From a virus: a stretch of 27,707 nt of DNA. The notes beneath the pieces are model-generated. The model saw only the letters and a list, made by a program, of their open reading frames with translations. It ran no database searches and was not told the origin of the DNA. The stretch is taken from positions 1 to 27,707 of the IMG/VR virus record IMGVR_UViG_3300042556_002536; one strand, given 5' to 3'. Each line of letters starts with the position of its first letter. Position 1 is the first letter of the stretch. Shown here one piece after another: positions 784-21,062 of this stretch. The position numbers were made by a program, and so were the translations under genes.

Positions 784-1497
784 ATGTCTGGCAGATTAAT
801 CGTAGGATCAATGCACATTGGCCATGTACTTGACATGAGTCAAAGAATGATTGATGCAATTCGTGATAACAAAGTTATATATAGTGATTATATGCCAGAC
901 AATTTATACGACCTGCTTGATTTTTATGGACTAAAAAGAAATGAATACGATATAAGAATTTTAAAAAGTACAAACACATTATTTGCAGATGAATATCAAT
1001 TAAAAGAATGTATGGATTTAATAAAAGAAGGAAGAACAATACTGTTACTTGCTGGAGAAGGACAAATTGGTATTGCAGATCCTGGTAACCAATTTATTCA
1101 AGAATGTATAAAACAAAATCTTAAATATACTGTATACCCTGGACCAAACTCTCACGTTACCGCATTTGTTGCAAGTGGAATAACTAACGGAGACTTTACA
1201 ATATCTTCAAATATGCAGTATCCAGAAAAAACTATCTCATATTTTAAGGATCAAGACACCCCATTAGTGATACCAATTTGGCCGAATAGACTTGAAGACA
1301 TATTACAATTAATTGATACTGAGTTTAAGTTTAATAATGGTAAAAATAAACAAGTAACTGTATGCGTAGACATGACATCTAATGAAGAAATGTTTATAAC
1401 TGATTGGGCTAACAAAATAGCACACAGAGAAGAAATTAAAAAAATTAGAGAACACGGCAAAATAGTATTAGTAATTAGTGATTTTATTAAAGAATAG
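784..1497 (+). CDS. RsmI-like tetrapyrrole-methylase-family protein (left copy)
   Basis: 237 residues resembling RsmI, the 16S rRNA C1402 2'-O-methyltransferase of the tetrapyrrole methylase (MraW-independent) family. The N-terminus GRLIVGSMHIGHVLDM corresponds to the family's start VxTPIGNLxDI. Near residues 90-101, AGEGQIGIADPG matches the SDAGTPGISDPG loop, followed by YPGPNSHVTAFVASGI, the PGPSA..AL..SGL motif. It is shorter than typical RsmI (about 280) and lacks the EDTR motif, so the substrate may differ. The Shine-Dalgarno AAGGAA is 7-8 nt before ATG 784. Its end overlaps a convergent oxygenase gene by 11 nt. A paralogue lies at 26617-27297. Confidence 0.7.
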   Translation: MSGRLIVGSMHIGHVLDMSQRMIDAIRDNKVIYSDYMPDNLYDLLDFYGLKRNEYDIRILKSTNTLFADEYQLKECMDLIKEGRTILLLAGEGQIGIADPGNQFIQECIKQNLKYTVYPGPNSHVTAFVASGITNGDFTISSNMQYPEKTISYFKDQDTPLVIPIWPNRLEDILQLIDTEFKFNNGKNKQVTVCVDMTSNEEMFITDWANKIAHREEIKKIREHGKIVLVISDFIKE

Positions 1498-2101
1498 ATT
1501 TATAAGTATCAAAATCTTTAAATTTTATTGATCTATAAACGTTGTATCTATTTCCATCTATTGGATCTTTAACACCATGAATAAAGTTTTTATTGCCAGC
1601 CCACATTACTAAAGAGTTTGCTTTGGGCTTAAATTCATAATTTCTTTCAGGAAAATATACTTGACCACCAGAATAATCGTCATTTATGTATATGTTACAA
1701 GACAAGTATCCGTCCCAAGCATTTCTCCAATCAACCAACTCTTCATCTTTAGGCTTTTCTCTATTTAAACCTTCTATAATATCAGTATGTACAGGCGTTA
1801 TAGCACCTGGAGTGGCTATAGTGGCAGCAAGCATATGTGTATCATCATCAACAAATTCTAAACCATAAAGTTCTGTAGCAGTATCTATAATTTTTTTATT
1901 GTATTTATTTTGTATTTCAATAATTTCTGAAGTAATAACTTTATCTATTTCTTCTTGAATGTGCTGACCATTTTGTGGTTGTGCTGCTGAAACCCAATCT
2001 AAAAACTTTAACATCTTATTATAATCATCAATGTCCATAAAGTTTTCTTTAGTTTTAATTAAACTTATATCATCACCTAAAACATCTACAAATTTGTTCA
2101 T
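1487..2101 (-). CDS. 2OG-Fe(II) oxygenase, prolyl-4-hydroxylase-like (copy 1)
   Basis: 204 residues with the iron and 2-oxoglutarate ligands of the P4H-type jelly roll: H105-x-D107, distal H175 (IHGVKD) and R185 (GNRYNVYR). Between them lies the signature INDDYSGGQVYFPERNYEFKPKAN. The family hydroxylates proline or other side chains using O2 and 2-oxoglutarate; the substrate cannot be read from sequence. ATG 2101 overlaps the TGA of the upstream oxygenase gene (ATGA), so the two are translationally coupled. It ends tail-to-tail inside the RsmI-like gene on the other strand. Confidence 0.88.
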   Translation of the reverse strand: MNKFVDVLGDDISLIKTKENFMDIDDYNKMLKFLDWVSAAQPQNGQHIQEEIDKVITSEIIEIQNKYNKKIIDTATELYGLEFVDDDTHMLAATIATPGAITPVHTDIIEGLNREKPKDEELVDWRNAWDGYLSCNIYINDDYSGGQVYFPERNYEFKPKANSLVMWAGNKNFIHGVKDPIDGNRYNVYRSIKFKDFDTYKSIL

Positions 2102-2814
2102 TTTGTATGATAATCTTTATTTAAATCTCTTAGGTATTGTAAGTTTGCCTGATATGGAAATGGTATCTTTGCTAACCTAGTATCTAACTCTCTTTGTGTT
2201 ATATTAGAAAAGAAAGCAACTATTGTATATCTTGGATTACCAGCACCTATGTCATGTATTTTGTGTTCATAAATATAAGATGCTGGAAATAAAAATAATT
2301 GATTTGCTTTAGGCTTTATTTTAATTCCAAAATTTATAAACTCTAATTCTCCACCCTCGTAATCATCGTTTGGATAATAAACCATTGCAACAGTTCTAGG
2401 TGTTCCATAAGAATCATCTGGATGCATACCAAAGTAATCACCTGCAGTATATTTGCTTATTCTCCAGTACTCTCTGCTCTGTGGATCTAAATCATAATGC
2501 CAAAGATATGAATCTACTATGTCTTCAAAAACCTTACATAACTCTAAATCTTTTTCTGGTTCTTCGAATGTTATCCAAGTACTTACACCCTTTTTGCCAA
2601 CTTCTTTTGAAATCTGTTTTCCATCTGAATCATAGATGTAATCTTCTCTAACAAATCTGCCAGCATCATCTAATTGTTTAATGTAGTTAAGTCCATCTGG
2701 CCATACATTGTTATATATATGTATGCCTGGTGCTGGTTGTTCGTGTTTATAATTGTTGCCCTCGCGGCTTTGAGTAATATTTATCTTGGCATTAGCCAAT
2801 TTTATAGGATCCAC
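2098..2814 (-). CDS. 2OG-Fe(II) oxygenase, prolyl-4-hydroxylase-like (copy 2)
   Basis: 238 residues; HPD motif H131-x-D133, a probable distal histidine H184 in YEHKIHD, and R195 in GNPRYTIVAFF. The core PNDDYEGGELEF...IKPKAN is typical of P4H-like enzymes. The start is GTG at 2814, preceded by GAAAGG about 8 nt upstream and by a TGATATAAT extended -10 at 2847-2839, giving a leader of about 18 nt. It forms a two-gene unit with the next oxygenase (4-nt overlap). The N-terminal 60 residues are longer than in the other copies and carry a PAPG segment of unknown role. Confidence 0.87.
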   Translation of the reverse strand: MDPIKLANAKINITQSREGNNYKHEQPAPGIHIYNNVWPDGLNYIKQLDDAGRFVREDYIYDSDGKQISKEVGKKGVSTWITFEEPEKDLELCKVFEDIVDSYLWHYDLDPQSREYWRISKYTAGDYFGMHPDDSYGTPRTVAMVYYPNDDYEGGELEFINFGIKIKPKANQLFLFPASYIYEHKIHDIGAGNPRYTIVAFFSNITQRELDTRLAKIPFPYQANLQYLRDLNKDYHTK

Positions 2815-2838
2815 CTAAATACCTTTCAGTTAGTATTA

Positions 2839-2847
2839 ATTATATCA
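2839..2847 (-). promoter_or_regulatory. Extended -10 promoter TGATATAAT upstream of 2814
   Basis: TGATATAAT reads on the minus strand from 2847 to 2839, a TG-n-TATAAT extended -10 element. The predicted +1 is near 2832, leaving about 18 nt with a Shine-Dalgarno before GTG 2814. It lies just downstream of the methyltransferase stop. The same nine bases recur before other genes in the window. Confidence 0.6.
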
Positions 2848-2855
2848 TACATAAA

Positions 2856-3458
2856 TTAATCCTTTTTTATGTATATATCTGAATAGCCACAATACCCAAG
2901 AGAGTATCCAACAACGTGCCAGTTGCTATTATTTAAAAAATTATTTACTGCCTCAACACACTCATACTCATGTTGTTCAAACCAACCATAAAAAGTATAA
3001 TCGTTTATTCCTATAATGCCACCGTCATTAATAAGTTTATCACACTCTGTTAAATAATTATATATTGATTGATAATCATGAGATGCATCTATATAAATAT
3101 AATCAAATTTTTTATCTATAGTTTTAATAGTATTATCTATATTACCAGCAATAGTTTTAATATTTTTATCTTTTAACAAATCTTTTACGTATTGCTCATG
3201 ATTTTCAGCATTCCATCTTCCATACCTTGCACACGGCTCATTAAAAAAATCTAACAAATACGAAAGTTCAAAATTTTTTCTATCAAGGATCCACTTTGAG
3301 TAGTCCCCTCCACCAGCACCTAGTTCTAGATATAACCCTTTGTCAGGAATTATAGATAAGATATTCTCATCAAACCTATCAGCAAAAAGTTTAGCATTAA
3401 TTAATTTTGATGCCTGAATATATTCAAATCTTTTATTTTCGCCTCTAGGTTGCTGCAT
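2856..3458 (-). CDS. Class I SAM-dependent methyltransferase (Methyltransf_24-like)
   Basis: 200 residues from ATG 3458. Motif I is LYLELGAGGGDYSKWI (SAM-binding glycine loop). A later YIYIDASHDYQSIYNYL and DGGIIGINDYTF match the Asp-His and post-motif region of Methyltransf_24-type enzymes, which act on small molecules or glycans. A longer reading from an ATG at 3512 exists, but 3458 is preferred because a TGCTACAAT extended -10 lies exactly 6 nt before it, which predicts a leaderless mRNA. It is transcribed divergently from the glycosyltransferase at 3475. The target is unknown; methylation of a glycan made by the neighbouring enzymes is an inference. Confidence 0.83.
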   Translation of the reverse strand: MQQPRGENKRFEYIQASKLINAKLFADRFDENILSIIPDKGLYLELGAGGGDYSKWILDRKNFELSYLLDFFNEPCARYGRWNAENHEQYVKDLLKDKNIKTIAGNIDNTIKTIDKKFDYIYIDASHDYQSIYNYLTECDKLINDGGIIGINDYTFYGWFEQHEYECVEAVNNFLNNSNWHVVGYSLGYCGYSDIYIKKD

Positions 3459-3477
3459 GCTATAATTGTAGCATATG
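3456..3477. promoter_or_regulatory. Shared mirror-symmetric -10 for two divergent leaderless genes
   Basis: On the plus strand TGCTATAAT occupies 3458-3466 and the ATG of the glycosyltransferase is at 3475. On the minus strand TGCTACAAT occupies 3473-3465 and the ATG of the methyltransferase is at 3458. The -10 hexamers overlap by two bases within the near-palindrome GCTATAATTGTAGC. Counting from the -10, +1 falls exactly on the minus-strand ATG and about 2 nt before the plus-strand ATG. The two start codons are only 16 nt apart, leaving no room for a separate leader or ribosome binding site. Confidence 0.65.
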
Positions 3478-4841: not shown

Positions 4842-4847
4842 TATAAT
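4839..4847 (+). promoter_or_regulatory. Extended -10 promoter for Hsp20
   Basis: TGATATAAT at 4839-4847 starts on the stop codon of the nucleotidyltransferase; an overlapping TATACT follows at 4848-4853. The predicted +1 near 4854 gives a leader of about 48 nt containing two purine tracts (GGAGGG at 4865-4870 and AAAAGGAG at 4887-4894). The second has ideal spacing to ATG 4902. Confidence 0.6.
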
Positions 4848-4901
4848 TATACTGTCTGCTCTTAGGAGGGACAAAACTACTCGCTGAAAAGGAGAAATAA
4901 A

Positions 4902-5315: not shown

Positions 5316-5348
5316 ACTCATAGTTATTTATATTAACTAGAGGGACCT

Positions 5349-5380
5349 GAGCATGTCTGGAAACTGCTCTTTACTTTTTG
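5349..5380 (+). terminator. Possible intrinsic terminator after Hsp20
   Basis: GAGCA (5349-5353) pairs with TGCTC (5365-5369) around an 11-base loop, followed directly by TTTACTTTTT. The stem is short, but the position between the Hsp20 stop (5315) and the next promoter (5390) suits a terminator. Low confidence. Confidence 0.4.
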
Positions 5381-5389
5381 ACTACTGAT

Positions 5390-5398
5390 TGGTATACT
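5390..5398 (+). promoter_or_regulatory. Extended -10, leaderless start at 5405
   Basis: TGGTATACT occupies 5390-5398 and six bases (AGATAT) separate it from ATG 5405, so the predicted +1 is the A of the start codon. A weak -35 match TTTACT lies 17 bp upstream (5370-5375). No Shine-Dalgarno is present. Confidence 0.6.
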
Positions 5399-5404
5399 AG
5401 ATAT

Positions 5405-5611: not shown

Positions 5612-6096
5612 TGTCTAAACAATGTGGCACATGTACAAAATGTTGTGATGGAACAACTGTGGGTGGATTAATTTACGGACACGGATTTGGTAACAAAAAG
5701 CCTTGTTACTTTTTAGACATAGCAAACAAAAACTGTAGCATTTATAGTGATAGACCAGAGCACCCATGTAAGTCTTATCAATGTATGTGGCTCAAATATG
5801 AGGATGTTCCTTTATGGATGAAACCAGAACATTCTAACGTTACGGTTACAGCAGAAGATTATAATGGTAATAAGTTTTTAATAATGAATGCTCAAACCAA
5901 TGATTATTCTGCAAAGGCATTGTCTTACGTAATCAACTATGCAGAAAAAAACAACATGAACCTAATCTACGATCTCACATTTGGAGGACCTTGGATATTA
6001 AAAGGAAACAAAGATCAACTAACAGACTATATTCTTAATTCAAAATCTTTTGAACACATGCCACTATACTATACTCATCAACAAGAAACTATATAG
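5611..6096 (+). CDS. YkgJ-like cysteine-cluster (metal-binding) protein
   Basis: 161 residues from ATG 5611. The first 60 residues contain eight cysteines (C5, C8, C11, C12, C32, C42, C53, C58) in the order CGTCTKCC ... PCYFLD...CSIYSDRP..PCKSYQC, which is the pattern of the YkgJ/CxxCxxCC family annotated as zinc or iron chelating. Some relatives act on Fe-S or metal handling, but the biochemical role is poorly known. The remaining 100 residues have no motif I can name. Its end overlaps the convergent oxygenase gene by 8 nt. A link to the iron-dependent oxygenases around it is only a suggestion. Confidence 0.8.
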   Translation: MSKQCGTCTKCCDGTTVGGLIYGHGFGNKKPCYFLDIANKNCSIYSDRPEHPCKSYQCMWLKYEDVPLWMKPEHSNVTVTAEDYNGNKFLIMNAQTNDYSAKALSYVINYAEKNNMNLIYDLTFGGPWILKGNKDQLTDYILNSKSFEHMPLYYTHQQETI

Positions 6097-6745
6097 TATT
6101 ATCAAAATCTTCAAACTTGGTCCAAAGACTACAAGAATATCTAGTGTTACCTTTAGTTTCTCTAACTCCGTGTAGATAGTGTGTGTTTCCAGGAAATGAT
6201 ATCAGCATTCCTGGTTTTGGTTTTATTTGAAAATCAAAATCTGGAAAAAATAATTCTCCACCTTCAAAATCATCATTTAAATATAAAATATTTGCTAAAT
6301 GACCACTCCAAAAATATGGAAAATATTTTTCTGTAACAGAGTACTCATTTTTTTCATCATGCTTTGGTTTCCAACCTATCACATCAGTATGTGGATCTAA
6401 ATATGTACCTGATGGATGAAATGCATAATGAAGGGCTATATCTGTTATCTGATTCATGTTATAAAATTTTGTAGAGTTTTCTGCTATTAAAGGAGTAATG
6501 TATGAAGCAAAATATTTTAAAACTTTATTATTTACTTGATTATAATGCAAACCTTTGCCATGAGTATGATGATTATCGTATTCTGGCTCATGTTTTTTAC
6601 ATTCATTAAGAATAAATTCAACTTCATCTTGTGGTAAAAAGTTTTCAAATATGCCAATATTTTTTATATCAATACCTAGTTTTGTTGTAATATTGTCCAT
6701 CTTTTTAACTGTTGGCCTGTAATATTTTTCATCTATCTTATGCAA
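6089..6745 (-). CDS. 2OG-Fe(II) oxygenase, prolyl-4-hydroxylase-like (copy 3)
   Basis: 218 residues with H119-x-D121, distal H192 (YLHGVRE) and R202 (GNTRYSCSLW). The signature LNDDFEGGELFFPDFDFQIKPKPG lies between the ligands. The called start is TTG 6745, two bases after the stop of the small gene upstream, with AAGAAAG inside that gene as a possible Shine-Dalgarno. ATG 6700 (MDNITTK) is a possible alternative and would not remove any catalytic residue. It belongs to a minus-strand unit starting at 7566. Confidence 0.87.
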   Translation of the reverse strand: MHKIDEKYYRPTVKKMDNITTKLGIDIKNIGIFENFLPQDEVEFILNECKKHEPEYDNHHTHGKGLHYNQVNNKVLKYFASYITPLIAENSTKFYNMNQITDIALHYAFHPSGTYLDPHTDVIGWKPKHDEKNEYSVTEKYFPYFWSGHLANILYLNDDFEGGELFFPDFDFQIKPKPGMLISFPGNTHYLHGVRETKGNTRYSCSLWTKFEDFDNTI

Positions 6746-6747
6746 AA

Positions 6748-7566: not shown

Positions 7567-7573
7567 GTTTACT

Positions 7574-7582: not shown

Positions 7583-7591
7583 CAATCTTAG

Positions 7592-7606: not shown

Positions 7607-8260
7607 ATGATCTATGACAAATATGTAGAGCAATTTGACAAAATAGGGTATCTGGAAGATAGGATAGTTACAGTACCTGATTTTATTGATAAAGAAGGTC
7701 TTGACCTAATCAATAATTGGATGAATGATTTTGGACTACCTGGTGTAAACGACAAAAAAAATATAGACAACCAGGCAGTTGTTAATATACTGATTAATAG
7801 TGAAATAAAAATATATAATCAAATATGTAAAAACTATAAAAATAAATATGATGTTGATTTTGATGATAATGCTCTTGTTCCAACTCATTTAATAAAATGG
7901 GATCTTGGTTATGATAACCCATTGCCAGTACATGCTGACTGTGAAAGGCCAGATGGATTGCCAGCAATGCATGACGGATATTACAAGTATAATCTAGCAG
8001 CAATATGTTATTTAAATGATAATTATGTTGGTGGAGAAATTTTTTTTCCACAATTTAATAAAACTATTAAACCAAATGCAGGAGATTTGATAATGTTTCC
8101 AGGTAGATTTAGACACGGAGTAACTGGAGTTAAGAGTGGAGATAGACACACAATGTTATCTTGGTTTAGATTTAATGTTGAAGACAATACTCTTGATAAA
8201 GATTTACCATATGCTGGTACTGCTCTTGGTGTGCTGTTTAATGATGAGACAGGCAGTTAA
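7607..8260 (+). CDS. 2OG-Fe(II) oxygenase, prolyl-4-hydroxylase-like (copy 4)
   Basis: 217 residues with H109-A-D111, distal H170 (FRHGVTG) and R180 (GDRHTMLSWF). LNDNYVGGEIFFPQFNKTIKPNAG is the P4H-like core. It stands alone on the plus strand between two minus-strand units, with its own leaderless-type promoter, so it can be expressed independently of the other five copies. The 37-residue tail after the core (NVEDNTLDKDLPYAGTALG...) is longer than in copies 1 and 3. Confidence 0.88.
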   Translation: MIYDKYVEQFDKIGYLEDRIVTVPDFIDKEGLDLINNWMNDFGLPGVNDKKNIDNQAVVNILINSEIKIYNQICKNYKNKYDVDFDDNALVPTHLIKWDLGYDNPLPVHADCERPDGLPAMHDGYYKYNLAAICYLNDNYVGGEIFFPQFNKTIKPNAGDLIMFPGRFRHGVTGVKSGDRHTMLSWFRFNVEDNTLDKDLPYAGTALGVLFNDETGS

Positions 8261-8575: not shown

Positions 8576-9298
8576 CTATGAGTAATTTTTCTTGGACCAA
8601 AAGTTTTTCTTGTATCCATTTTCCATTACCTTTTTAATACCGTAAGACATTCTTTTAAATTGTTTATCATTATACTCTAGTCCTTGAGAAGTCCAATCTT
8701 CTCTTTTAATAAATATCATTTGATATATTGGAGTTCCAGCAGGTATCAAACCTTCAAACCCTTTCTTTACCATAAAAGGTATTGGCCCATTAACTGACCA
8801 TTTATCTGTATCTATAATACCATTCATTGTTAAGAATGGTAGGTCTAATCTGTTTGCTGGATGAAAGTATAATGTACTATACCCTGCTGGAGTCTGAGGT
8901 TCCCACTGTGTAATCCAATGAAATTCGTTAGTATAGTAACCATCAAAATTAGGAAACACTCTTCTAGAATCAGTATCCTGTGCTCTTGTAGACAATGGTT
9001 TAATTGGACCAGCCCACTTATAAGTTACAATATCATTACCTGTGTTTGGATCAATGCCAAGATTCGTTATTTCAACATCACATATTAGTTCTTGTGTATA
9101 TCCTGAAGTTAATGCATCTAAAAATGGTGGACATTTTTTTGCTGTACCGTCGTCCCTGTTACCTCTCAAAGTTGGTTGAAGAGTAGGCATATCCTTAAAC
9201 CATTTTGGTAAATAGTTTTTTGCAGACTGTGGTCTTGGGGTCATAAATTCTGCATCCTGACTAGATGGAACAAAGTTTACCTCTTGACTATTAGTCAT
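8576..9298 (-). CDS. Unknown conserved protein, paralogous family U1 (copy A)
   Basis: 240 residues, one of three clear paralogues here (with 22008-22769 and 22769-23497). Shared motifs in order: LPKWFK near residue 30; KKCPPFLDALTSGY near 54-67; TPAGYSTLYFHPANRLDLPF near 136-155; KKGFEGLIPAGTPIYQMIFIKREDW near 180-204. The mix of strands, turns and a G-x-I-x-x-G-T-P-x-x-Q segment suggests a beta-barrel fold; no function is known to me. ATG 9298 overlaps the stop of the tiny gene upstream (ATGA), with AAGGA about 10 nt before it. Confidence 0.75.
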   Translation of the reverse strand: MTNSQEVNFVPSSQDAEFMTPRPQSAKNYLPKWFKDMPTLQPTLRGNRDDGTAKKCPPFLDALTSGYTQELICDVEITNLGIDPNTGNDIVTYKWAGPIKPLSTRAQDTDSRRVFPNFDGYYTNEFHWITQWEPQTPAGYSTLYFHPANRLDLPFLTMNGIIDTDKWSVNGPIPFMVKKGFEGLIPAGTPIYQMIFIKREDWTSQGLEYNDKQFKRMSYGIKKVMENGYKKNFWSKKNYS

Positions 9299-10152: not shown

Positions 10153-10443
10153 CTATTTATTCATACCCATGGTTAAGGTTTGCCAAATGTTTGCCCATAT
10201 TGGTTTTGTTTTGTGGTTATTAAATTCTCTAGATATTTCTCCTTGCTCAAGGTAAATACCGCCCCAAACTCCCCATTCTTTTTGAGTAATTCCAACAGAG
10301 AAACACTCTTTCATAACAGGACACTCTAAGCATAGTTTATCTATTGCTGGCCTAAGCATTGAATCATTTTCATATTTTTCAAAAAAAATGTTAGTATCAT
10401 ATTTATAACATGATCCTTTTTCTTTCCACTCATGTTTTTTCAT
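10153..10443 (-). CDS. WhiB-family Fe-S transcription factor
   Basis: 96 residues with the WhiB four-cysteine [4Fe-4S] set: C12, then C38-x2-C41-x5-C47 (CLECPVMKEC), followed by the GVWGG turn at 58-62. The family regulates transcription through sigma factor region 4 in Actinobacteria and is common in their phages; phage copies can override host regulators. The C-terminal tail after GVWGG is short and not strongly basic, so direct DNA contact may be weak. ATG 10443 is 1 nt after the upstream stop, with GTAGG as a modest Shine-Dalgarno. This gene is one of the best host indicators in the window. Confidence 0.93.
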   Translation of the reverse strand: MKKHEWKEKGSCYKYDTNIFFEKYENDSMLRPAIDKLCLECPVMKECFSVGITQKEWGVWGGIYLEQGEISREFNNHKTKPIWANIWQTLTMGMNK

Positions 10444-10444: not shown

Positions 10445-10654
10445 TTAACCTACATATTTAGTTGGCATATTCCAACCATCTCGTGATGGCGAAAATATTT
10501 TTTTAATATACCATGCTCCATTTACAAAGGCACCAGCAGTAGATAGACGTCCTTTATCTGATTGCGTCATTTCTATTACATCCCAACCATCCCAAGATAG
10601 TTTTTTATTATTTGCAACAATTGATTCCATAACTTCTAACTTATCAATTATCAT
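10445..10654 (-). CDS. Small unknown protein (69 aa)
   Basis: 69 residues with a DGWDVIEMTQSDKGRLSTAGAFVNGAWYIKKIFSPSRDGWNMP core; the repeated DGW and the strand pattern suggest a small beta-sheet fold. No family is recognised. ATG 10654 overlaps the SpeD-like stop (ATGA), and its own stop is 1 nt before WhiB, so it is translated as a link between the two. Confidence 0.65.
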   Translation of the reverse strand: MIIDKLEVMESIVANNKKLSWDGWDVIEMTQSDKGRLSTAGAFVNGAWYIKKIFSPSRDGWNMPTKYVG

Positions 10655-11031
10655 TTTGCACCCAAGTCAATTGCTTTGAAACCATTTTCTCTGTCAAATA
10701 AAATCCAATCCATTGATTCTATTTGCATTTCTCTATTTATGTGTTCAAGAATAATATCTTTATCTAATTCTCCACATGTGTATAAATCAAATTGCAGCAT
10801 TGCAGGATCTTTTTCATCCCAAATATGAAATGCAATATGAGATGTTTCAATCATTACTATTGCTGTTAAACCACGATTTCCTTCAGCCTCAACATAAGAA
10901 GCAAAAGGTCCTTTGATAATCTTCATCTGTATTGCATAAACCAGTCTTGTTAAAAACCCAACGCCATCTTCTGGAGTCTTTAATGGATTTTTTACTTTAG
11001 CATTAATCAGTATGTGCTTGTGTTGTAACAT
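10651..11031 (-). CDS. S-adenosylmethionine decarboxylase-like pyruvoyl enzyme (SpeD family)
   Basis: 126 residues. The self-cleavage and catalytic region reads IETSHIAFHIWDEKDPAMLQ then FDLYTCGE: S64 would become the pyruvoyl group, H69 is the processing His (S+5 as in class Ib enzymes) and C86 the catalytic Cys. The residue before the cleavage Ser is Thr instead of the usual Glu. SpeD makes decarboxylated SAM for spermidine synthesis, but some phage and bacterial homologues have become ornithine or arginine decarboxylases, so the substrate is open. No spermidine synthase gene lies in the window. Phage polyamines usually serve DNA condensation. Confidence 0.82.
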   Translation of the reverse strand: MLQHKHILINAKVKNPLKTPEDGVGFLTRLVYAIQMKIIKGPFASYVEAEGNRGLTAIVMIETSHIAFHIWDEKDPAMLQFDLYTCGELDKDIILEHINREMQIESMDWILFDRENGFKAIDLGAK

Positions 11032-12148: not shown

Positions 12149-12802
12149 CTACTTAATAATTGTTACAGAGAATGAGGTTTTCTTACAAGACTTTAAATTA
12201 TTTGCAATTGCATCTTTTTCTTTTTTATCAACAGAAAGAGACCATCTAACTTTAACTGATACCCAGTTAGTCAAGTATTCGCACACGTATGCTTTATTTG
12301 TTGGTAACCAATCTGCTGGATCTCTATCTGATTTTGATCTATTAGATGCACCTGTTACCGCAATTAAATGACGTGGATCTATCTGATCATTTGCATAAAC
12401 TTCACGTTTTTTTGCATCCCATGCCTGTGCACCAGAATCCCATGCCTCTGCTAAAGGAACCATATGATCAACATCAAGTTTACCTGCTTCAGTTACAGTT
12501 ACATTGTCGTATATGCTTAACCATTTACCGCCAGCAATTGCACACTTCTTGTCAACAGTTGGCTTTACAGTTGCTTCTGAAATAATAACTGCCTTTCTAG
12601 AATCACAGCCGTTTCCTACTCCAACCCAATGCTTAAACTGTTCTCTTTTATATCCTGTACGAACTTCATCAGCAACTTTTAAAGTATTTAATGCTGACAA
12701 TGCATCTTTATATTTTTTATCTGCAGCATTAGCAGATATAGTATTAAAACATAGTGCTATTGCACACAATGCAACTAAAACTTTATTGTGATTCTTATTC
12801 AT
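12149..12802 (-). CDS. Secreted HNH-type nuclease, DUF1524/GmrSD-C-like
   Basis: 217 residues. A signal peptide occupies about residues 1-26 (VLVALCAIALCF...SANA). The mature part follows the actinobacterial secreted DUF1524 pattern: LKVADEVRTGYKREQFKHWV, GCDSRKAVI, DVDHMVPLAEAWDSGAQAWD (the D-x-D-H metal/catalytic motif), ANDQIDPRHLIAV, NRSKSDRDPADWLP, and a C-terminal CEYLTNWVSVKVRW segment. It should cleave nucleic acid outside the cytoplasm. GGAGAAAACA precedes ATG 12802, which lies 8 nt inside the previous gene. In a phage it might degrade DNA released by lysis or help entry; these roles are guesses. Confidence 0.85.
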   Translation of the reverse strand: MNKNHNKVLVALCAIALCFNTISANAADKKYKDALSALNTLKVADEVRTGYKREQFKHWVGVGNGCDSRKAVIISEATVKPTVDKKCAIAGGKWLSIYDNVTVTEAGKLDVDHMVPLAEAWDSGAQAWDAKKREVYANDQIDPRHLIAVTGASNRSKSDRDPADWLPTNKAYVCEYLTNWVSVKVRWSLSVDKKEKDAIANNLKSCKKTSFSVTIIK

Positions 12803-14443: not shown

Positions 14444-14667
14444 TAATCCACCTTTTTACCAAACCTTGACCAGGCTCTTTCATGTAAAAAAAATCCAACC
14501 ATTTCACAGGCTGTATAGATTATTGCAAATGATCCAGCATATTCCCAGTGTGCTTCACCAGTTATTGCTTTTTCAAAAAAATATACTAACGTACCAACAA
14601 AACCTATGTGTACGATAGGCCAACTAAAACTTTTATATAAACTTCTTTTTCTAGATTCTTTTTTCAT
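14443..14667 (-). CDS. DUF2061-like membrane protein
   Basis: 74 residues. KRSLYKSFSWPIVHIGFVGTLVYFF and then YTACEMVGFFLHERAWSRF match the DUF2061 pattern (KRSLxKxxxWR... LxEmxxKxxxxxxHERxW). Two hydrophobic helices, residues about 17-32 and 43-60, predict a small integral membrane protein of unknown function. It overlaps the oxidoreductase gene by 17 nt upstream and the FmdB-like gene by 1 nt downstream. Confidence 0.75.
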   Translation of the reverse strand: MKKESRKRSLYKSFSWPIVHIGFVGTLVYFFEKAITGEAHWEYAGSFAIIYTACEMVGFFLHERAWSRFGKKVD

Positions 14668-15628
14668 AAATCTTATTCCTTATCTCATCAAAGAACTCTG
14701 CAAATCTAAGTGATTCAGAGACTGGCAATACAAAAGATTTTTCTCCTCTAATATAATCAGCAAATTGTTCTGCCATTATTTTATAAGGATCGCAAGCCTC
14801 AAATTCTTCTATTACTATTTTACCATAATTATCTTCAATAATCAAGTTACTCACATTATTGTAAGAAAAATAAGCATCGTTGCCTGCTGTATATATTTTA
14901 CCCTCTGTTCCAGTAATTGTTAAATAGTCCGTTTGTTTAATGTTCATAGAGGTAACAGTTCTGCATTCTATATCATTAATTCTGTAATTGATTATTAGCG
15001 TTTCATCACAACCATCTGGATGCCAAAGGACCTTTGTTGTGATATCTTCAACAGGAGCAAAATTAGTTATCCACAATGGTGCAACTGCAGAATAAGGACC
15101 AAGGTCATAAAGACTTCCACCACCTAGTTCAGGGGTTGTTCTAATCTTATTAATATCATTAAGTTGAGAGTAGGTAGCACATGTATCAATGCTAGTTATT
15201 TGACCAATTACCCCCAAATCAATAAGTTCTTTGATTCTGACAGTTCGAGGGTGCCATCTATTCCAACTTGCTTCCATTAACAATTTTCCTGTTGATTCAG
15301 AAACCTTGATTGCTTCCTTTAATTCTTGAGCATTCATGGCTATTGGCTTTTCACACAAAACATGCTTGCCTGCTTGCATGGCCTTTATTGCCCAAGGAAT
15401 ATGTAAAGAGTTTGGTAAAGAAATATAAACTGCTTCAATTTCAGGATCATCAATCAAGTCTTGATAGTTATCATAAATTTTTCCTGTAGGAGAAAGTGCT
15501 TCTGCTCTTTTTAAATCTCTACTTGCAACACCACTAATTGTAACAGCAGAAGAATCTTGCATTGCTGGATAAAGACCTATCTTAGCAATTAAACCTGCAC
15601 CAATAAAACCGAATCTGACTTTTTCCAT
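14651..15628 (-). CDS. Gfo/Idh/MocA-family NAD(P)-dependent oxidoreductase
   Basis: 325 residues, full family length. The Rossmann start VRFGFIGAGLIAKIGLYPAM carries GxGxxA; VYISLPNSLHIPWAIKAMQAGKHVLCEKPIAMN carries the nucleotide-proximal EKP motif; GGGSLYDLGPY is the catalytic-domain loop, where a D-x-x-x-Y/H arrangement is usual. Members oxidise or reduce sugars, inositols and nucleotide sugars. In this cluster the likely role is remodelling a sugar before or after transfer, which is an inference from context. ATG 15628 shares one base with the GT60-like stop (TAATG). Confidence 0.9.
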   Translation of the reverse strand: MEKVRFGFIGAGLIAKIGLYPAMQDSSAVTISGVASRDLKRAEALSPTGKIYDNYQDLIDDPEIEAVYISLPNSLHIPWAIKAMQAGKHVLCEKPIAMNAQELKEAIKVSESTGKLLMEASWNRWHPRTVRIKELIDLGVIGQITSIDTCATYSQLNDINKIRTTPELGGGSLYDLGPYSAVAPLWITNFAPVEDITTKVLWHPDGCDETLIINYRINDIECRTVTSMNIKQTDYLTITGTEGKIYTAGNDAYFSYNNVSNLIIEDNYGKIVIEEFEACDPYKIMAEQFADYIRGEKSFVLPVSESLRFAEFFDEIRNKIYEKRI

Positions 15629-16584
15629 TATGAATATGTCTTGCTATTAATAATACTCTTTCTTATTTTCCAATAATTTTCTTCCATATCTATTTCATTA
15701 TAAAAATCTATAATACTTCTTGTATAGTTTAAAATATTAAAATATTTATTTTTACCCATTATCATTAATTTTTTAACTTCTTTTGTCATTTCGTCATCAT
15801 CTAAAACCCATATTCTGGTCCAATGATTTGGATCATTGCGATCAGTTCCAACAAACTTCCACCATCTTTCATCATATGGAAATGAGTATTTAGCATCGTT
15901 ACCAGCATAGTGAACTATATTTTCAGCATATGGGGCAACCACATCATAATTTTGGCAATACACCGCTATAGATTGTTCTGGTTCTTCAAATGGAAATCTA
16001 TGATATGAAGGAAACTTTATAGCCTTAATATCAGAACATTTTGCAAAAATAAAATTACAAGAAATATAATAGTTTTTAAAATACTTGTCATTAACTTTAT
16101 CTTTATTTAATATTGAATCAAACTCAACAACTTCACCATGTAAGTCTAATTGATCAAAATCTCCATCTACAACCCACCTTGTTTTCCAATTACGTTTACC
16201 TTGAACTTTGGCTGTAGCCTGTCTAGATATTATTCTCTTTTCATTGTTCTTAGTTAATTCTTCTATGTCATCTATTAAAGCAGTGTCCCAGTTAAGTTCA
16301 AAATCTGCATGAGCGTCTATTCCCAAGAAATACTGTTCATCTTCTATTAGACCCCTTATAGCCTCTCTAATGCCTACTATACCTGGTTGGCCTTCTGCTA
16401 TGTCTTGATCTCTAACTATTTTTACATTGTTAAACATTGATAAGTCTGGTTCTTGTTCGTAGTTTAATCCAAGCCCAAATACAATATTTTCAGGGTAATA
16501 AGCAGTATCTAAAATATGATTCATAGTATCTACTAGATGAGTATCTTCCCATGCTGGAATCGACACAAATATTTTATTATTCAT
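15628..16584 (-). CDS. GT60-like (PF11397, Skp1 GlcNAc-transferase type) glycosyltransferase
   Basis: 318 residues from ATG 16584 (TAATG overlap with the carbamoyltransferase). The N-terminal region KIFVSIPAWEDTHLVDTMNHIL and ENIVFGLGL, then YFLGIDAHADFELNWDTALI (the D-x-H metal/donor motif) and IISRQATA, follow the PF11397 GlcNAc-transferase family. Later RFPFEEPEQSIAVYCQNYDVVAPYAENIVHYAG matches its acidic GEE-type and C-terminal His region. In eukaryotic Skp1 this family adds GlcNAc to hydroxyproline. The acceptor here is unknown. A possible internal promoter TGATATAAT lies 37 nt upstream. Confidence 0.75.
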   Translation of the reverse strand: MNNKIFVSIPAWEDTHLVDTMNHILDTAYYPENIVFGLGLNYEQEPDLSMFNNVKIVRDQDIAEGQPGIVGIREAIRGLIEDEQYFLGIDAHADFELNWDTALIDDIEELTKNNEKRIISRQATAKVQGKRNWKTRWVVDGDFDQLDLHGEVVEFDSILNKDKVNDKYFKNYYISCNFIFAKCSDIKAIKFPSYHRFPFEEPEQSIAVYCQNYDVVAPYAENIVHYAGNDAKYSFPYDERWWKFVGTDRNDPNHWTRIWVLDDDEMTKEVKKLMIMGKNKYFNILNYTRSIIDFYNEIDMEENYWKIRKSIINSKTYS

Positions 16585-18014
16585 TATATTATCTTTGCTC
16601 CGTATGTTTGTTCCCAATTAATTATATCACTCTCATCATTAAGTAATGGCTGACCTTTAATATTTAAACTGGTATTTAATAAAACTGGTACCTTTGATAT
16701 TTTGTACCATCTAGATAACAAATCGTATAGCCCAGGATGCTGATCCTTATTTACAGTCTGAACCCTAGAGGTTCCATCTTTATGAACAACGGACGGTATC
16801 AAATCTGGCTTTAAACACTTAACTGCATACTGCATATAAGGACTTGTAAAATTCATATCAAACCATTTACTTGCATGTTCTTCCATCACAACTGGTGCAA
16901 AAGGTCTAAAGAGTTCACGCTTTTTAATATTATTAACCTTATCCTTAATGTTTGGATCTCGAGGGTCTGCCAATATACTTCTATTACCTAATGCTCTTGG
17001 TCCGTATTCTGCTCTTCCACTCGCTACCGCCGCAATTCCGTTATTTACTATTTCATTTAATGCTGCATATACTGGATAGTTATCTCCCAAATCATATCCA
17101 AGAAATGGTGTCTTAAAATCAATATGCTTTCCGTACAGTGCTGCTGCTGCACCCAAAGAACTTCCAGCATCCCCAGGGTTAGGCATAATCCAGATGTCAT
17201 CAAATATATTCCACAACAACGTGTTAGCAGAACAATTAAGAGCACAACCACCCATAAAAACTAATTTATTTTTCTTGGTTATTTTTTTTGCCATATACAT
17301 AAAATCTATTAACTTTATTTGATAAACTTCTTGCACTGCTGCTGCAATATCAAATCTATCTTGTTCGTGAATCTCCATACCCCAATCAAAAATTCCTTTA
17401 TGAAAATTATATTTTTGATAACCAATTGATGGAAAGTACTCTAAAACTTTTTTAAGATATTTTTGTTTATCCCCATAAGCGGCCATGCCCATCATTATGT
17501 ACTCCTCTTGGTTTGGCATCAGGCCAATCAATTGAGTAAAAGCAGAATAAAACAAACCAAAACTAAAAGGATAATTATCTTTGTACATTAACTTAATATC
17601 ATTTCCTTCTCCAGTCCAAATGGTAGAGGTATTAAACTCTCCAATTGAATCAAGCACTACAATTGCTGCATCATCAAACTTGCTAGTATAGTACCCTGCT
17701 GCAGCATGCGAGTAATGGTGTTTAAAGTTAGTTCTTGGTATTGCATTAAGATAGGTATGTTCAAACCAAGGCTTGCCGCCACCAAAACCACCACGAGTTG
17801 CAACTCTCAGTTTTTTTAAAAAAGGATTTTCATAGTAGGCTATTTGATCTGGAATCCCATACTCCAATGCATTATCTATTAAATCCTTATTAGTAAACCA
17901 ATCGTTTTTAATTTTGCTATATCTTTCTGCATGCCCAGAAAATAAGACTTCATTGTTTTTAATTAAAGATATAGAAGCATCATGAGTTGTTTCATTAATT
18001 CCCATTATTAGCAT
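16584..18014 (-). CDS. O-carbamoyltransferase, NodU/CmcH/TobZ family
   Basis: 476 residues, close to the family length of about 500-580 though shorter. MLIMGINETTHDASISL opens the Kae1-like domain; NFKHHYSHAAAGYY carries the metal-binding histidines (H99-H103); MGGCALNCSANT and GRAEYGPRALGNRSILADPRDP are the nucleotide and YrdC-like signature segments; LLNTSLNIKGQPLL closes the family pattern. These enzymes transfer a carbamoyl group from carbamoyl phosphate to a sugar hydroxyl. The start at 18014 has GGAG 8 nt upstream and overlaps the SGNH-like gene by 20 nt. Confidence 0.92.
   Translation of the reverse strand: MLIMGINETTHDASISLIKNNEVLFSGHAERYSKIKNDWFTNKDLIDNALEYGIPDQIAYYENPFLKKLRVATRGGFGGGKPWFEHTYLNAIPRTNFKHHYSHAAAGYYTSKFDDAAIVVLDSIGEFNTSTIWTGEGNDIKLMYKDNYPFSFGLFYSAFTQLIGLMPNQEEYIMMGMAAYGDKQKYLKKVLEYFPSIGYQKYNFHKGIFDWGMEIHEQDRFDIAAAVQEVYQIKLIDFMYMAKKITKKNKLVFMGGCALNCSANTLLWNIFDDIWIMPNPGDAGSSLGAAAALYGKHIDFKTPFLGYDLGDNYPVYAALNEIVNNGIAAVASGRAEYGPRALGNRSILADPRDPNIKDKVNNIKKRELFRPFAPVVMEEHASKWFDMNFTSPYMQYAVKCLKPDLIPSVVHKDGTSRVQTVNKDQHPGLYDLLSRWYKISKVPVLLNTSLNIKGQPLLNDESDIINWEQTYGAKII
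16621..16629 (-). promoter_or_regulatory. Possible internal promoter TGATATAAT before the GT60-like gene
   Basis: TGATATAAT reads from 16629 to 16621 on the minus strand, inside the end of the carbamoyltransferase gene. Predicted +1 is near 16614, giving a 30-nt leader with ACGGAG before ATG 16584. It could let the glycosyltransferase be expressed without the upstream genes, but it is inside coding sequence and may be chance. Confidence 0.35.
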
Positions 18015-18822
18015 CTGTGTACTCCGTTCTATCTAAAAATTCTATAGACCATGCGTGATGTGCAGCCTCGCTTGGATGACTGCTGTCATTTCCTAAAATT
18101 GTCATAGAAGGATCAACATCCTGTATATACCTAAAAGTATTATCAGCAAATCTTTTATTATCTATTTGATAATAAGTATCAAAAGATTCTTTCATATTAT
18201 TATGTGTTTTAATTTCATAATCATATATATCCAAATAAATAAAATCAGTTACTCCTGGAACAGTATCAACCCAAGATGTTGTAATTAATTTAATATTTTT
18301 ATTTTTACAATAACTGTCCAATATGCTGTATAAATTATATACAAATAAATCTACGATTGTTCCATCTCTACCATCGTTAGTATTAAATTTATTCCAATCT
18401 CTACCGTAATTAGAAAAAAGAATAAATATATAATCTGGATCAGAATATTTTGCAATATATTTAAAAACATTTAAAAGTATTTCTATTGGCGACCCACCAG
18501 ATAAACTTACATTAAAATATCCACTACACTTTTCTTTTTTATTTATCTCATCATACACTTTATAAGACCAACTTTTTTTAATATTATCCACTCCACAACC
18601 TGCTGTTATTGAACATCCAGCAAACAATAAATGTTTTTTATTATTATGTATTTTTGTAAAGTCATCACTAAAATAATAATTATAAAGATTGCTTTCAGAA
18701 TTTGATTTTAAAAATGGTCCAACTATATCTTTGTCTTTTGTTAATAAATGTTGAAAATATTGAGGAGTATCTTTTTTTTGTTGTTCAATTATTCTTTTAT
18801 AACTATCTGCATAATTGTTCAT
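17995..18822 (-). CDS. SGNH/GDSL-like hydrolase or acyltransferase (copy 1)
   Basis: 275 residues. Block I is KHLLFAGCSITAGCGV (Ser in GCSIT), block II NVSLSGGSP (Gly), block III DYIFILFSNYGRD (Asn), block V NDSSHPSEAAHHAW (Asp and His in D-x-x-H). These are the four SGNH signatures, so the protein should be an esterase or acyl/acetyl-transferase acting on a glycan or small substrate. No signal peptide or membrane helix is visible. The ATG at 18822 follows a 68-nt AT-rich spacer with no clear promoter. It overlaps the carbamoyltransferase start by 20 nt. Confidence 0.72.
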   Translation of the reverse strand: MNNYADSYKRIIEQQKKDTPQYFQHLLTKDKDIVGPFLKSNSESNLYNYYFSDDFTKIHNNKKHLLFAGCSITAGCGVDNIKKSWSYKVYDEINKKEKCSGYFNVSLSGGSPIEILLNVFKYIAKYSDPDYIFILFSNYGRDWNKFNTNDGRDGTIVDLFVYNLYSILDSYCKNKNIKLITTSWVDTVPGVTDFIYLDIYDYEIKTHNNMKESFDTYYQIDNKRFADNTFRYIQDVDPSMTILGNDSSHPSEAAHHAWSIEFLDRTEYTDANNGN

Positions 18823-18890
18823 ATTAATAAATAAAATCTCTTTTTTTAAAATGTTTTTTATTTTTTCTCAACCAAAAATAAAACTTTATT

Positions 18891-19781
18891 TTATATATTA
18901 TTTTTTTCATCTAAATACCTTTCGTAAAAATATTCACTCCACGCATTATGATAGGCAATTCCGTAATGTTTAGATCCATCCAATGTTTCCATTAAATCTT
19001 TTCTGTCTTTATTCTGTTTACAGTAGTCATATAATTTTTTAGAAAATTTTAAACTATCTATATTTTTAAAAGTATCAACATTTTTTTCTAACAACACACA
19101 TTGTTCATAAGGATTTCTAACTCCAAATTCAAAATAAGAATCTTCAGCACTTGGACGCATATACCCATTTTCATCAACAAACATATAATTTGGTTTTATT
19201 ATATTTAAATCATTTTTAATTTTATGCCAAGATAAATCTTGTTCAGGAATAACCCAAGTAGTTGATATCAATTTTATATTATTAGATACACAATAATCTT
19301 CAAATTGTTTATAAAATTCAATAACAAATGGAGTAAGAAGTATGTCTGGATTTTTTAAATATCTAAAATCTCTTTCAAGATCTGGTAATAATAAAAATAT
19401 TACATCTGGTTTTGTATATTGTCTTATATATCTATATACATTTGTTATTATTTCTATTATGCTTGCACCTTCAACTCCAAGATTAAAATATCCGCTAAGG
19501 GGTTCTTCTGATAAAAGTTTATTGTATAATATATGACTCCAAACCTCTTCATATTTACTTCCATAACCAAATGTATGTGAGCAGCCAGCAAACAATATAT
19601 GTTTTTTAGAATGTGTTTTTATAAATTCTTCACATCTAAATCCTTGTTTATTTGTTACAAAAGAATAATTTAATTTTTTAAAATTTTCAACATCTTTAAC
19701 ATTGCCTTTATCTACTAAAAACTCATTTAATTTATTGCTATATCGAATACTAGCGTGTAAGATTTCTTGCTCAAAAGTCAT
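18891..19781 (-). CDS. SGNH/GDSL-like protein (copy 2)
   Basis: 296 residues, a paralogue of the downstream gene. Matching segments are KHILFAGCSHTFGYG (block I), NLGVEGAS (block II), DVIFLLLPDLERD (block III, where the expected Asn is not evident) and DGSKHYGIAYHNAW (block V). In block V the acidic residue is one position earlier relative to the His than in copy 1, and block III lacks N, so catalysis may be altered. It starts at 19781 with a 1-nt overlap with the oxygenase stop. An AT-only hairpin follows the gene in the 68-nt gap to 18823. Confidence 0.65.
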   Translation of the reverse strand: MTFEQEILHASIRYSNKLNEFLVDKGNVKDVENFKKLNYSFVTNKQGFRCEEFIKTHSKKHILFAGCSHTFGYGSKYEEVWSHILYNKLLSEEPLSGYFNLGVEGASIIEIITNVYRYIRQYTKPDVIFLLLPDLERDFRYLKNPDILLTPFVIEFYKQFEDYCVSNNIKLISTTWVIPEQDLSWHKIKNDLNIIKPNYMFVDENGYMRPSAEDSYFEFGVRNPYEQCVLLEKNVDTFKNIDSLKFSKKLYDYCKQNKDRKDLMETLDGSKHYGIAYHNAWSEYFYERYLDEKNNI

Positions 19782-20455
19782 TATTCTTGTCCAGTAGAGT
19801 TTCTAATCATGTGCGATGGCACATTATGAAACCAAGTAGGCAAAGCATATCTTGGTCCTTTTAAAACAGAATCAACTTCATGAACATATAAAAAGTTAGA
19901 TGGAAAAAAAACAATACTGCCTGCTGATGGTTTAATAGTCACATTAGATTGTTTAAAAGTTATTTCTCCACCAACATAATCATCGTTAAGGTATAGCAAT
20001 ACAGATAAAACCCTAGTACTTACACCTTGGTCTTGATGTGGTGGCAAGTATCCAGATTTGTCATATCTTAATAAACTAGTTGCGTGCTCTTTTGCTTTAA
20101 CATTTTTTTGTGCAAATGGATATAATTTTGTTGAATAGTGCAACAGTGCTTCATCAATTGACCCATGTATTCTAGAAGATATGTTTCTTTGTTCATCTTT
20201 AAAAGCATCATCATCTGATATTTGTTCCATAGTTGGAATAAATTTTTGCCAACAAAATATTTCTTTTGTTCCAGCACTATCATTAATCCAAGGAGACCAA
20301 GGTTGAACAACTGTTCTCTGTTTAATATCTTCAGAACTATTCAAAAACCTTTCTTCTAGGTCTTCTATGTTTCTTATAATCTGATCAGTATTTTTTACAA
20401 TATTCTTATAATATACTAAACCTAAATCTAATACTTCATGATCTATTGAACTCAC
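19781..20455 (-). CDS. 2OG-Fe(II) oxygenase, prolyl-4-hydroxylase-like (copy 5)
   Basis: 224 residues with H140-Q-D142, distal H192 (YVHEVDS) and R202 (GPRYALPTWF). LNDDYVGGEITFKQSNVTIKPSAG is the core. Its N-terminal 60 residues are longer than in copy 6 and unrelated by eye. The start at 20455 lies 20 nt inside copy 6, so the two oxygenases are co-expressed as a pair immediately upstream of the SGNH and glycosylation genes. Confidence 0.88.
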   Translation of the reverse strand: MSSIDHEVLDLGLVYYKNIVKNTDQIIRNIEDLEERFLNSSEDIKQRTVVQPWSPWINDSAGTKEIFCWQKFIPTMEQISDDDAFKDEQRNISSRIHGSIDEALLHYSTKLYPFAQKNVKAKEHATSLLRYDKSGYLPPHQDQGVSTRVLSVLLYLNDDYVGGEITFKQSNVTIKPSAGSIVFFPSNFLYVHEVDSVLKGPRYALPTWFHNVPSHMIRNSTGQE

Positions 20456-21062
20456 GTTCTGCAGCCTCTCTTTCTAATGGATACTCTACGGCTTGCCAAG
20501 TTGGATTCTTATCTTCCCCCAAGAAATCTGGATCTGCATGTTCTGGAAGTGATGTGTGCATATATAGTGCAGTGTATCTATGACCTTCAGTTACTTCAGT
20601 GATACCGTGAATATATTCTGTACCAGAACTTGGAAAGAATACTGCAGAATATTTTTTAGGCTGGTATACAAAATCTTGATTAGGAAAAAATATTTTACCA
20701 CCTTGGTATTCTGGAGTTTCGTTTAAATAAATTATTGTACTAAATTCTATAAATGGCTCTGGACCTTGTGCATCTAAGTGTAGGCCACCCCTTGTACCCT
20801 TTGTCCAGTGTGATCCAAAACCTTTAAACACATATATTGGATTAAGAAATCCATTAAAAGACCTGTGTATTTCATTAGACTTATTGCCATACTTAATCAT
20901 AATATCCATGACCGTTTTATTGTATGGTAATGATGTACCACCATATCTTTTACTATAGTATTCTGGATACGGATTAACTTCTGATGGGTTGTGTTGTTCC
21001 CTTATTAGGGTATCTGCGTCTTCCTTGGTTATGAAATTATCCACTACCGCGATTCTATGCAT
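20436..21062 (-). CDS. 2OG-Fe(II) oxygenase, prolyl-4-hydroxylase-like (copy 6)
   Basis: 208 residues with H95-L-D97 (GGLHLDAQG), distal H152 (YIHGITE) and R162 (GHRYTALYMH). The core region YLNETPEYQGGKIFFPNQDFVYQPKKYS differs from the other copies by a longer NETPEYQGG loop. A TGATATAAT extended -10 at 21091-21083 gives a leader of about 14 nt with AGGA before ATG 21062, so this gene begins a transcript that probably covers the following decoration genes. Confidence 0.88.
   Translation of the reverse strand: MHRIAVVDNFITKEDADTLIREQHNPSEVNPYPEYYSKRYGGTSLPYNKTVMDIMIKYGNKSNEIHRSFNGFLNPIYVFKGFGSHWTKGTRGGLHLDAQGPEPFIEFSTIIYLNETPEYQGGKIFFPNQDFVYQPKKYSAVFFPSSGTEYIHGITEVTEGHRYTALYMHTSLPEHADPDFLGEDKNPTWQAVEYPLEREAAEREFNRS

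Follow-up and report, generated by a model that had tools for sequence, protein, structure and literature searches.

Introduction

In Dictyostelium and Toxoplasma, hydroxylation of the protein Skp1 by PhyA is followed by the action of Gnt1, a glycosyltransferase (GT) of family GT60, as described in PMC6939170, and the same source places a polypeptide alpha-GlcNAc-transferase of Trypanosoma cruzi in GT60 as well. Here, we analyzed a stretch of 27,707 bases (hereafter the window), record IMGVR_UViG_3300042556_002536 of IMG/VR, from a freshwater virus of bacteria, which carries six 2-oxoglutarate (2OG)-Fe(II) oxygenase genes (oxy1 to oxy6) and two glycosyltransferase genes related to Pfam family PF11397, here named GTb and GT60. 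The minus-strand stretch 24197-15628 of the window is a conserved, putative tailoring cassette, in which GTb is the core glycosyltransferase and GT60 an accessory one; SGNH-like genes are optional, and GT60 and an oxidoreductase are present sometimes. The Skp1 pathway, in which a GT60 enzyme works in series with a prolyl hydroxylase of the 2OG type, finds a parallel in the adjacent oxygenase and PF11397-type glycosyltransferase genes of the cassette. Unlike it, the cassette contains two oxygenases, a core glycosyltransferase lacking the D-x-H motif, a carbamoyltransferase (CarbT), and SGNH-like and DUF6065 genes. The T. cruzi enzyme belongs to the same family as the phage GT60, and the GT27 polypeptide GalNAc-transferases are the nearest fold of GTb. 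Both the T. cruzi GT60 enzyme and the GT27 enzymes modify protein hydroxyls without needing an oxygenase. As GT60 includes the T. cruzi enzyme, kinship with this family is no proof of hydroxyproline.

The presence of many oxygenases in one phage is already known from cyanophages. Nine 2OG oxygenases are described in cyanophage S-SZBM1 (PMC9146016) and 24 in S-SCSM1 (PMC9602691), while Sullivan 2010 reported numerous such genes in 14 of 16 genomes, with proposed roles in 2OG and nitrogen metabolism or in repair (PMC3037559); a further source likewise treats several per cyanophage as known and proposes repair, nitrogen or metabolic roles (PMC10436341). The marine cyanophages S-SSM5, S-SCSM1 and S-SZBM1 resemble the window in their many divergent 2OG genes, several of which, in S-SSM5, lie beside a Nol-like carbamoyltransferase gene and tail-fibre genes. 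They differ from it in sequence, since named phages have relatives of oxy6 with 27% identity, among the 40 records listed out of 54, and relatives of oxy5 (416 records) with a query coverage below 80%. For GTb, a tblastn comparison with 50,697 named phage records gave no match, and positions 1-25000 of the window have no near DNA match in named phages. Among the matches listed in the open-licence literature, no paper dealt with phage hydroxyproline glycosylation or with this combination of genes. Genes for 2OG oxygenases belong to those that recur most in aquatic phages and yet lack an explanation, and the cassette offers an assayable pathway for two of them.

We propose that the cassette carries out hydroxylate-and-cap tailoring, with a protein made during infection as the most likely acceptor, and we give this reading a probability of roughly 45%. 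Oxy6 and oxy5 would hydroxylate the acceptor; the new hydroxyls would then be capped by GTb, and in some phages by GT60 too, while CarbT would place an O-carbamoyl group on hydroxyls and the SGNH-like enzymes would add or strip acyl groups. What the analysis shows are the genes with their families and conserved order, the proximity of oxygenases and glycosyltransferases in phages and bacteria, and the predicted glycosyltransferase fold; the sequence of these reactions, the nature of acceptor and sugar and the part played by DUF6065 are inferred. A protein acceptor is favored by the glycosyltransferases, whose family PF11397 and nearest folds are those of polypeptide transferases, by the oxygenases, whose nearest relatives are prolyl or protein hydroxylases, and by similar gene pairs in bacteria; proline is a possible hydroxylated residue. 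It is doubtful, as a more specific version, that this is a phage pathway of the Skp1 kind, in which phage hydroxylases would form hydroxyproline or another hydroxylated residue on phage-made proteins, for PF11397-type glycosyltransferases to glycosylate and a NodU-type enzyme to carbamoylate, and which would share ancestry with the bacterial pairs of prolyl 4-hydroxylase (P4H) and PF11397 genes.

The gene order of the cassette is conserved around GTb and oxy6

A scan of viral sequence with the GT60 protein yielded 19 loci, 18 of which keep, as far as their ends reach, the order dufD-dufC-dufB-GTb-oxy6-oxy5-(SGNH)-CarbT-(SGNH)-GT60-(GFO), where GFO stands for a Gfo/Idh/MocA oxidoreductase gene; the most distant locus, L021, has GT60 genes at each end. 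A scan with oxy6 (20436..21062, minus strand) confirmed 176 relatives, of which 80 were kept and 37 were left as non-redundant below 90% identity. GTb (21092..22015, minus strand) stands immediately upstream of oxy6 in 34 of the 37, its place being taken in the other three by a methyltransferase gene (two) or the contig end (one). Enough flank (at least four genes upstream and at least five downstream) was available in 30 loci, and among these GTb and DUF6065-like genes were each found in 29, CarbT in 21, SGNH genes in 14 and GT60, within the gene range counted, in three. In loci retrieved with DUF6065 or oxy6 as query, and therefore partly selected, an oxygenase is the immediate neighbor of GTb in 59 of 60 non-redundant cases.

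An earlier note on this DNA had placed two oxygenases at the head of the run that contains GT60 (15628..16584, minus strand), and indeed the minus-strand run from 21062 to 15628 starts with oxy6 and oxy5 (19781..20455, minus strand). The central role that it gave to GT60 did not hold: with three occurrences in 30 flanked loci GT60 was rejected as the key enzyme, GTb being the core glycosyltransferase. In one further locus, L137, GT60 genes sit just beyond the range counted. The CarbT, SGNH-like and DUF6065 genes had been overlooked in that first reading of the cassette.

In ten close loci, oxy6 is 87-100% identical to the window, oxy5 80-100% and CarbT 76-97% (means of 96, 94 and 94%). These values bear on the proposal that the oxygenases are separate auxiliary genes, serving 2OG or nitrogen balance or repair, whose nearness to glycosyltransferases is incidental. 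Cyanophages usually carry many 2OG oxygenases and oxy1 to oxy4 lie outside the cassette, genes to which such an explanation could apply; the fixed order GTb-oxy6-oxy5, the 87-100% conservation of oxy6 and a bacterial P4H-PF11397 fusion (see below) are left unexplained by it, and we consider it very unlikely.

The predicted fold of GTb is nearest to polypeptide glycosyltransferases

GT60 matches PF11397 with 52.1 bits against a cut-off of 21, which bears out the family proposed for it by the earlier note. Its D-x-H (D90, H92) is intact and, like the WD motif, present in all eight alignment rows; membership in PF11397 is established here from the Pfam profile and the D-x-H. The gene at 21092-22015, described before as a second related enzyme, proved to be distant kin. 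GTb of the window matches no Pfam family over its cut-off and does not match PF11397, while among 54 GTb relatives there are 23 with a PF11397 match at E 0.01 or below, the best of them at 4.2e-10, and the comparison of the GTb and GT60 profiles by hhalign gave a probability of 98.1% and an E of 7e-14 over 241 columns. Within the GTb family, the WD motif is kept in 53 of 54 sequences and H231/Y233 in all 54.

The AlphaFold2 (AF2) model of GTb (predicted local distance difference test score, pLDDT, 86.9) is consistent with a GT-A glycosyltransferase. In the fold search (VIA), the top 29 rows are all polypeptide GalNAc-transferases (Z 18.2-21.0), led by ppGalNAc-T2 (Z 21.0, root-mean-square deviation 3.1, 246 residues aligned), and further matches are heparosan synthase and cellulose synthase (Z about 16 each) and the collagen lysyl hydroxylase-glucosyltransferase LH3 (Z about 15). 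GTb has, in its predicted structure, the GT27-like fold of polypeptide glycosyltransferases, a kinship that by itself is no proof of function. At the level of sequence, the GT60 profile found no relative in the PDB at E 1, and the GTb profile found a single chance-level row (E 0.11).

The nearest profile matches of oxy5 and oxy6 are prolyl and other protein hydroxylases

The six 2OG-Fe(II) oxygenases reported earlier, with H-x-D...H and Arg kept, are supported by their open reading frames (ORFs), by PF13640 and phrog_61 scores and by the motif alignment. PF13640 is matched over its cut-off of 27 bits by five of them, namely oxy2 (2098..2814, minus strand; 46.7 bits), oxy3 (6089..6745, minus strand; 38.1 bits), oxy4 (7607..8260, plus strand; 37.3 bits), oxy5 (61.6 bits) and oxy6 (34.8 bits), the exception being oxy1 (1487..2101, minus strand; 24.9 bits, E 4e-5), which matches phrog_61 at E 6.4e-13. 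All six match this phage oxygenase family at E 2.1e-12 or lower, and all have the H-x-D and the distal His, followed after 10-11 residues by an Arg (H95, D97, H152 and R162 in oxy6). They are 20-33% identical in pairs, showing that they are no recent duplicates.

The nearest solved relative of the oxy6 profile (34 rows) is prolyl 3-hydroxylase 1 (P3H1; E 2e-8), and the oxy5 profile matches PKHD, P3H1, P4H and PHD2 in the PDB, the first three being tied. Hydroxylases of the PHD, P3H and PLOD-like kind would be marked by an Arg at that place together with the nearest profile. The Arg is present in all six oxygenases, and the profiles compared with the PDB were those of oxy5 and oxy6; the oxygenases may belong to this group. 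Cellular relatives of oxy6 were looked for in genome contigs, and none was confirmed among 203 pattern matches.

Oxygenase and PF11397 genes are recurrent neighbors in phages and in some bacteria

Further loci were found with the glycosyltransferase alone (L202-L260), and in these the enzyme is at most 53% identical to that of the window. Among 54 GT60-type genes, 16 have an oxygenase as immediate neighbor, compared with 27 among 417 other genes, an odds ratio of 6.1 (Fisher p 2.7e-6, to be taken as a guide only since the rows are related and some loci contain the same cassette). Within three genes, the counts are 24 of 47 for GT60-type versus 76 of 330 for other genes.

Scanning of genomes turned up 27 relatives of PF11397 in bacteria, and an oxygenase lies at most three ORFs away in 15 of them (judged by eye; the glycosyltransferase of L287 is cut). 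These 15 pairs represent three gene orders, one common to 13 loci from SAR86 and other proteobacterial bins, one from Polaribacter and one from a betaproteobacterium. In the SAR86 locus L276 (5324-7008; 12 syntenic loci), a P4H-like gene is divergent from the PF11397 gene at a distance of 35 bases, and its product (PF13640, 63.7 bits) is by eye a prolyl 4-hydroxylase of the Lys type. In L310 (487-3114; G347:C1:1306047-1308671), one bacterial protein of 875 amino acids combines PF13640 (residues 99-204), PF11397 (299-538, 222.3 bits) and a tubulin-tyrosine-ligase-like (TTL) domain (663-857). Among 289 genomes from the class to which it belongs, this fusion is the sole match covering both of the first two domains. 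Biochemical confirmation of the bacterial P4H-PF11397 neighbors and of the fusion would mean that hydroxylation-linked glycosylation occurs in bacteria too.

The coupling of oxygenase and PF11397-type glycosyltransferase put forward by the earlier note stands as a recurrent neighborhood (GTb in phages, the 15 of 27 bacterial relatives and the fusion); for GT60 within the clade of the window, the test goes against it. PF11397 was detected in 28 out of 398 genomes of one bacterial phylum sample and in 11 out of 395 of another, 8 of the latter being over cut-off. A general bacterial rule of P4H-PF11397 pairing was considered and rejected on the 42 loci kept from these samples. Three other long PF11397 proteins from the phylum sample were scanned as well, and in two of them a second domain weakly resembles methyltransferases.

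Observations at odds with glycosylation of a hydroxylated protein

Several results weigh against our proposal. Three loci (L152, L170 and L172) have oxy6-oxy5-CarbT without GTb or DUF6065 within the available stretch, suggesting that glycosylation is perhaps not obligatory. GTb itself has S-D-N at the position aligned with D-x-H, so that its metal site is altered, and the enzyme may use a different metal site or none. Among NCBIfam models, the nearest to oxy2 to oxy6 are PKHD-type dioxygenases, all far under cut-off. Collagen-type prolyl 4-hydroxylases have a Lys about 10 residues past the distal His; this Lys is present in those bacterial P4H partners that were viewed, and the six phage oxygenases have Arg in its place. 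As PF13640 members with a solved structure are mostly prolyl hydroxylases, the evidence from nearest matches is also biased.

Gene neighborhoods add two further points. Within the clade of the window, an oxygenase lies within three genes of GT60 in 2 of 10 cases versus 52 of 151 for other genes, which is no excess; there, the CarbT and SGNH-like genes stand between GT60 and the oxygenases. In the 42 phylum-sample loci, an oxygenase was seen only in L310 and in L313 of the starting genome, these loci being 3.9 kb or less, including some duplicates and two from the starting genome whose P4H falls past the locus end. Finally, DUF6065 may have the fold of a nucleotide enzyme, to judge from its predicted structure.

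DUF6065 and the carbamoyltransferase in relation to possible DNA modification

Three DUF6065-like genes open the cassette on the minus strand. The product of dufB (22008..22769) scores 18.6 bits with PF19541, under the cut-off of 26.6; dufC (22769..23497) is a paralog 31% identical to dufB, and dufD (23490..24197), with no Pfam match and a conserved position in the cassette, is a probable distant paralog. A further paralog, dufA (8576..9298, minus strand), 32% identical to dufB, lies outside the cassette. The slot of dufC is taken by a different gene of 218-255 amino acids in 13 of the 37 non-redundant loci; five of these were read and are alike, and Pfam gave no match for the single one that was scanned.

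For the AF2 model of dufB (pLDDT 84.6), the 50 listed rows of the fold search (VIA) are all dUTPases (best Z 9.2, root-mean-square deviation 2.6, 117 residues aligned), and Foldseek gave E 6.4e-4 with a TM-score by query that is weak at 0.27. EutQ is matched instead by 3 of 57 members of the family, and the DUF6065 profile has no sequence relative in the PDB at E 1. In named phages, tblastn found relatives in 50 records, by name 49 haloviruses and one cyanophage. No paper on DUF6065 was found in the open-licence literature.

This predicted dUTPase/dCTP-deaminase-like fold keeps alive the alternative that the cassette hypermodifies DNA or nucleotides, the oxygenases oxidizing a base that GTb or GT60 and CarbT would cap while DUF6065 shapes the nucleotide pool. 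The family also has a GIVDTD...GTPxxQ stretch, which we take to resemble dUTPase motifs, and in the single halovirus region viewed the DUF6065 relative adjoins thymidylate synthase, with DNA polymerase near. Against this alternative, the matches of the window to the TET/JBP base hydroxylase family PF12851 (cut-off 34.9) are under the cut-off, the best being oxy4 with 20.8 bits. We also surveyed 20 long contigs (75-125 kb, maybe fragments), which all have oxy6, in 17 cases together with GTb and oxy5 within the available stretch, and 2-7 PF13640 matches each: thymidylate synthase, C5 DNA methylase and TET-associated glycosyltransferase were each found in 0 of 20.

CarbT (16584..18014, minus strand) is an O-carbamoyltransferase of the NodU/TobZ type (PF16861, 176 bits; PF02543, 120.3 bits), with NovN, GdmN and TobZ as matches in the PDB. 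A phage carbamoyltransferase is known to act on 5-hydroxymethylcytosine (5hmC) (PMC8670742), and CarbT belongs to the same superfamily and has a similar residue at the place of TobZ W408: this is V (72) or I (3) in the CarbT family, never W, and I in the 5hmC enzyme (numbering mapped via residue spacing). The two differ in their signature, which is C-N-T in the 5hmC enzyme and G-N-R in 75 of 75 distinct CarbT homologs with the motif, as in NovN, which acts on a small molecule; nine further CarbT rows, including those from the cyanophage loci L037 and L038, lack the motif string. Thus, CarbT retains the canonical G421 and R423, with only W408 replaced, and a thymidylate synthase partner is missing from the long contigs, which sets it apart from the 5hmC enzyme. 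The same source describes carbamoyltransferases in unmodified contigs that are flanked by glycosyltransferase genes, among others (PMC8670742). Taking both sides together, we regard DNA or nucleotide modification as rather unlikely.

The SGNH-like genes and a possible tailoring of glycans or small molecules

Two genes between oxy5 and CarbT on the minus strand have no Pfam match and are SGNH-hydrolase-like by eye: SGNH1 (17995..18822), with GCS..G and D..HPS motifs in its translation, and the variable SGNH2 (18891..19781), whose best matches in the ten close loci are 32-96% identical. At the other end of the cassette lies the accessory Gfo/Idh/MocA oxidoreductase gene (14651..15628, minus strand; PF01408, 91.3 bits), which several close loci lack. 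Genes of this kind, the SGNH-like ones, the NodU-like CarbT (148.6 bits with the NCBIfam NodU model, far under its cut-off of 1000) and the oxidoreductase, are typical of glycan pathways, and elsewhere in the window there are a GT2 gene and an NTP-transferase-like gene. The cassette might accordingly tailor a surface glycan or a small molecule, that is, a host or virion polysaccharide, a lipid or a nucleotide sugar that is hydroxylated and then decorated by the SGNH-like enzymes and CarbT.

Such surface decorations would be expected to vary, and across the ten close loci mean identity is lower for SGNH2 (58%), SGNH1 (74%) and GTb (80%) than for oxy6, oxy5 and CarbT; the lowest SGNH2 values perhaps come from paralogs, and genes outside the cassette are partly just as variable (g12795, for instance, 79%). 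Against this explanation, Pfam scans of 39 proteins of the window revealed no polymerase or flippase, and the predicted fold of GTb resembles polypeptide GalNAc-transferases (Z 18-21) more closely than polysaccharide synthases (Z at most 16). We hold glycan or small-molecule tailoring to be unlikely. SGNH1 has no match in named phages.

Candidate acceptors

Concerning the tailoring of a protein, which we prefer, the earlier note had suggested as substrate the Pro-rich linker of a secreted, subtilase-like protein encoded next to the cassette (24925..25827, minus strand). The label "subtilase" comes from reading by eye, as Pfam gives 0 families. Among 35 distinct full-length orthologs, 8 have a Pro-rich linker, and 25 of the 27 that lack one come from loci that also contain GTb, oxy6 and oxy5; since the cassette is kept without the linker, the latter was rejected as a conserved substrate.

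Other secreted proteins were observed near related cassettes. In L137, L141, L146 and L154, the gene before dufD encodes a secreted-looking protein of 503-522 amino acids with a Pro-Thr linker, unmatched by the profile of the subtilase-like protein, whose slot it occupies. The related 91.5-kb contig G016 has a gene for a secreted protein of 414 amino acids with a Pro-Thr linker, and at 90143-90871 a phage gene with a collagen-like Gly-X-Y stretch. The Pro-Thr-linker proteins of these five sequences and the collagen-like protein of G016 are possible substrates.

Further genes in the window

The window is probably a fragment, because G016 carries the same cassette together with terminase, tape measure and replication genes (by eye). 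A WhiB gene at 10153-10443 (PF02467, 44.2 bits) suggests an actinobacterial host.

Tandem tRNA genes for Asn, Met and Thr (24693-24918) adjoin the cassette, and an Ntn-hydrolase-like gene (26019-26579; proteasome/HslV-like by eye) is located upstream of it in many of the loci viewed. Two genes belong to or resemble the tetrapyrrole-methylase family (RsmI-like by eye), one at 26461-27297 with 61.6 bits, over the cut-off, and one at 784-1497 with 25.9 bits, just under the cut-off of 27.8. The gene at 10651-11031 belongs to the S-adenosylmethionine decarboxylase family (47.8 bits), and the product of the one at 12149-12802 looks secreted and matches the GmrSD C-terminal HNH domain with 53 bits.

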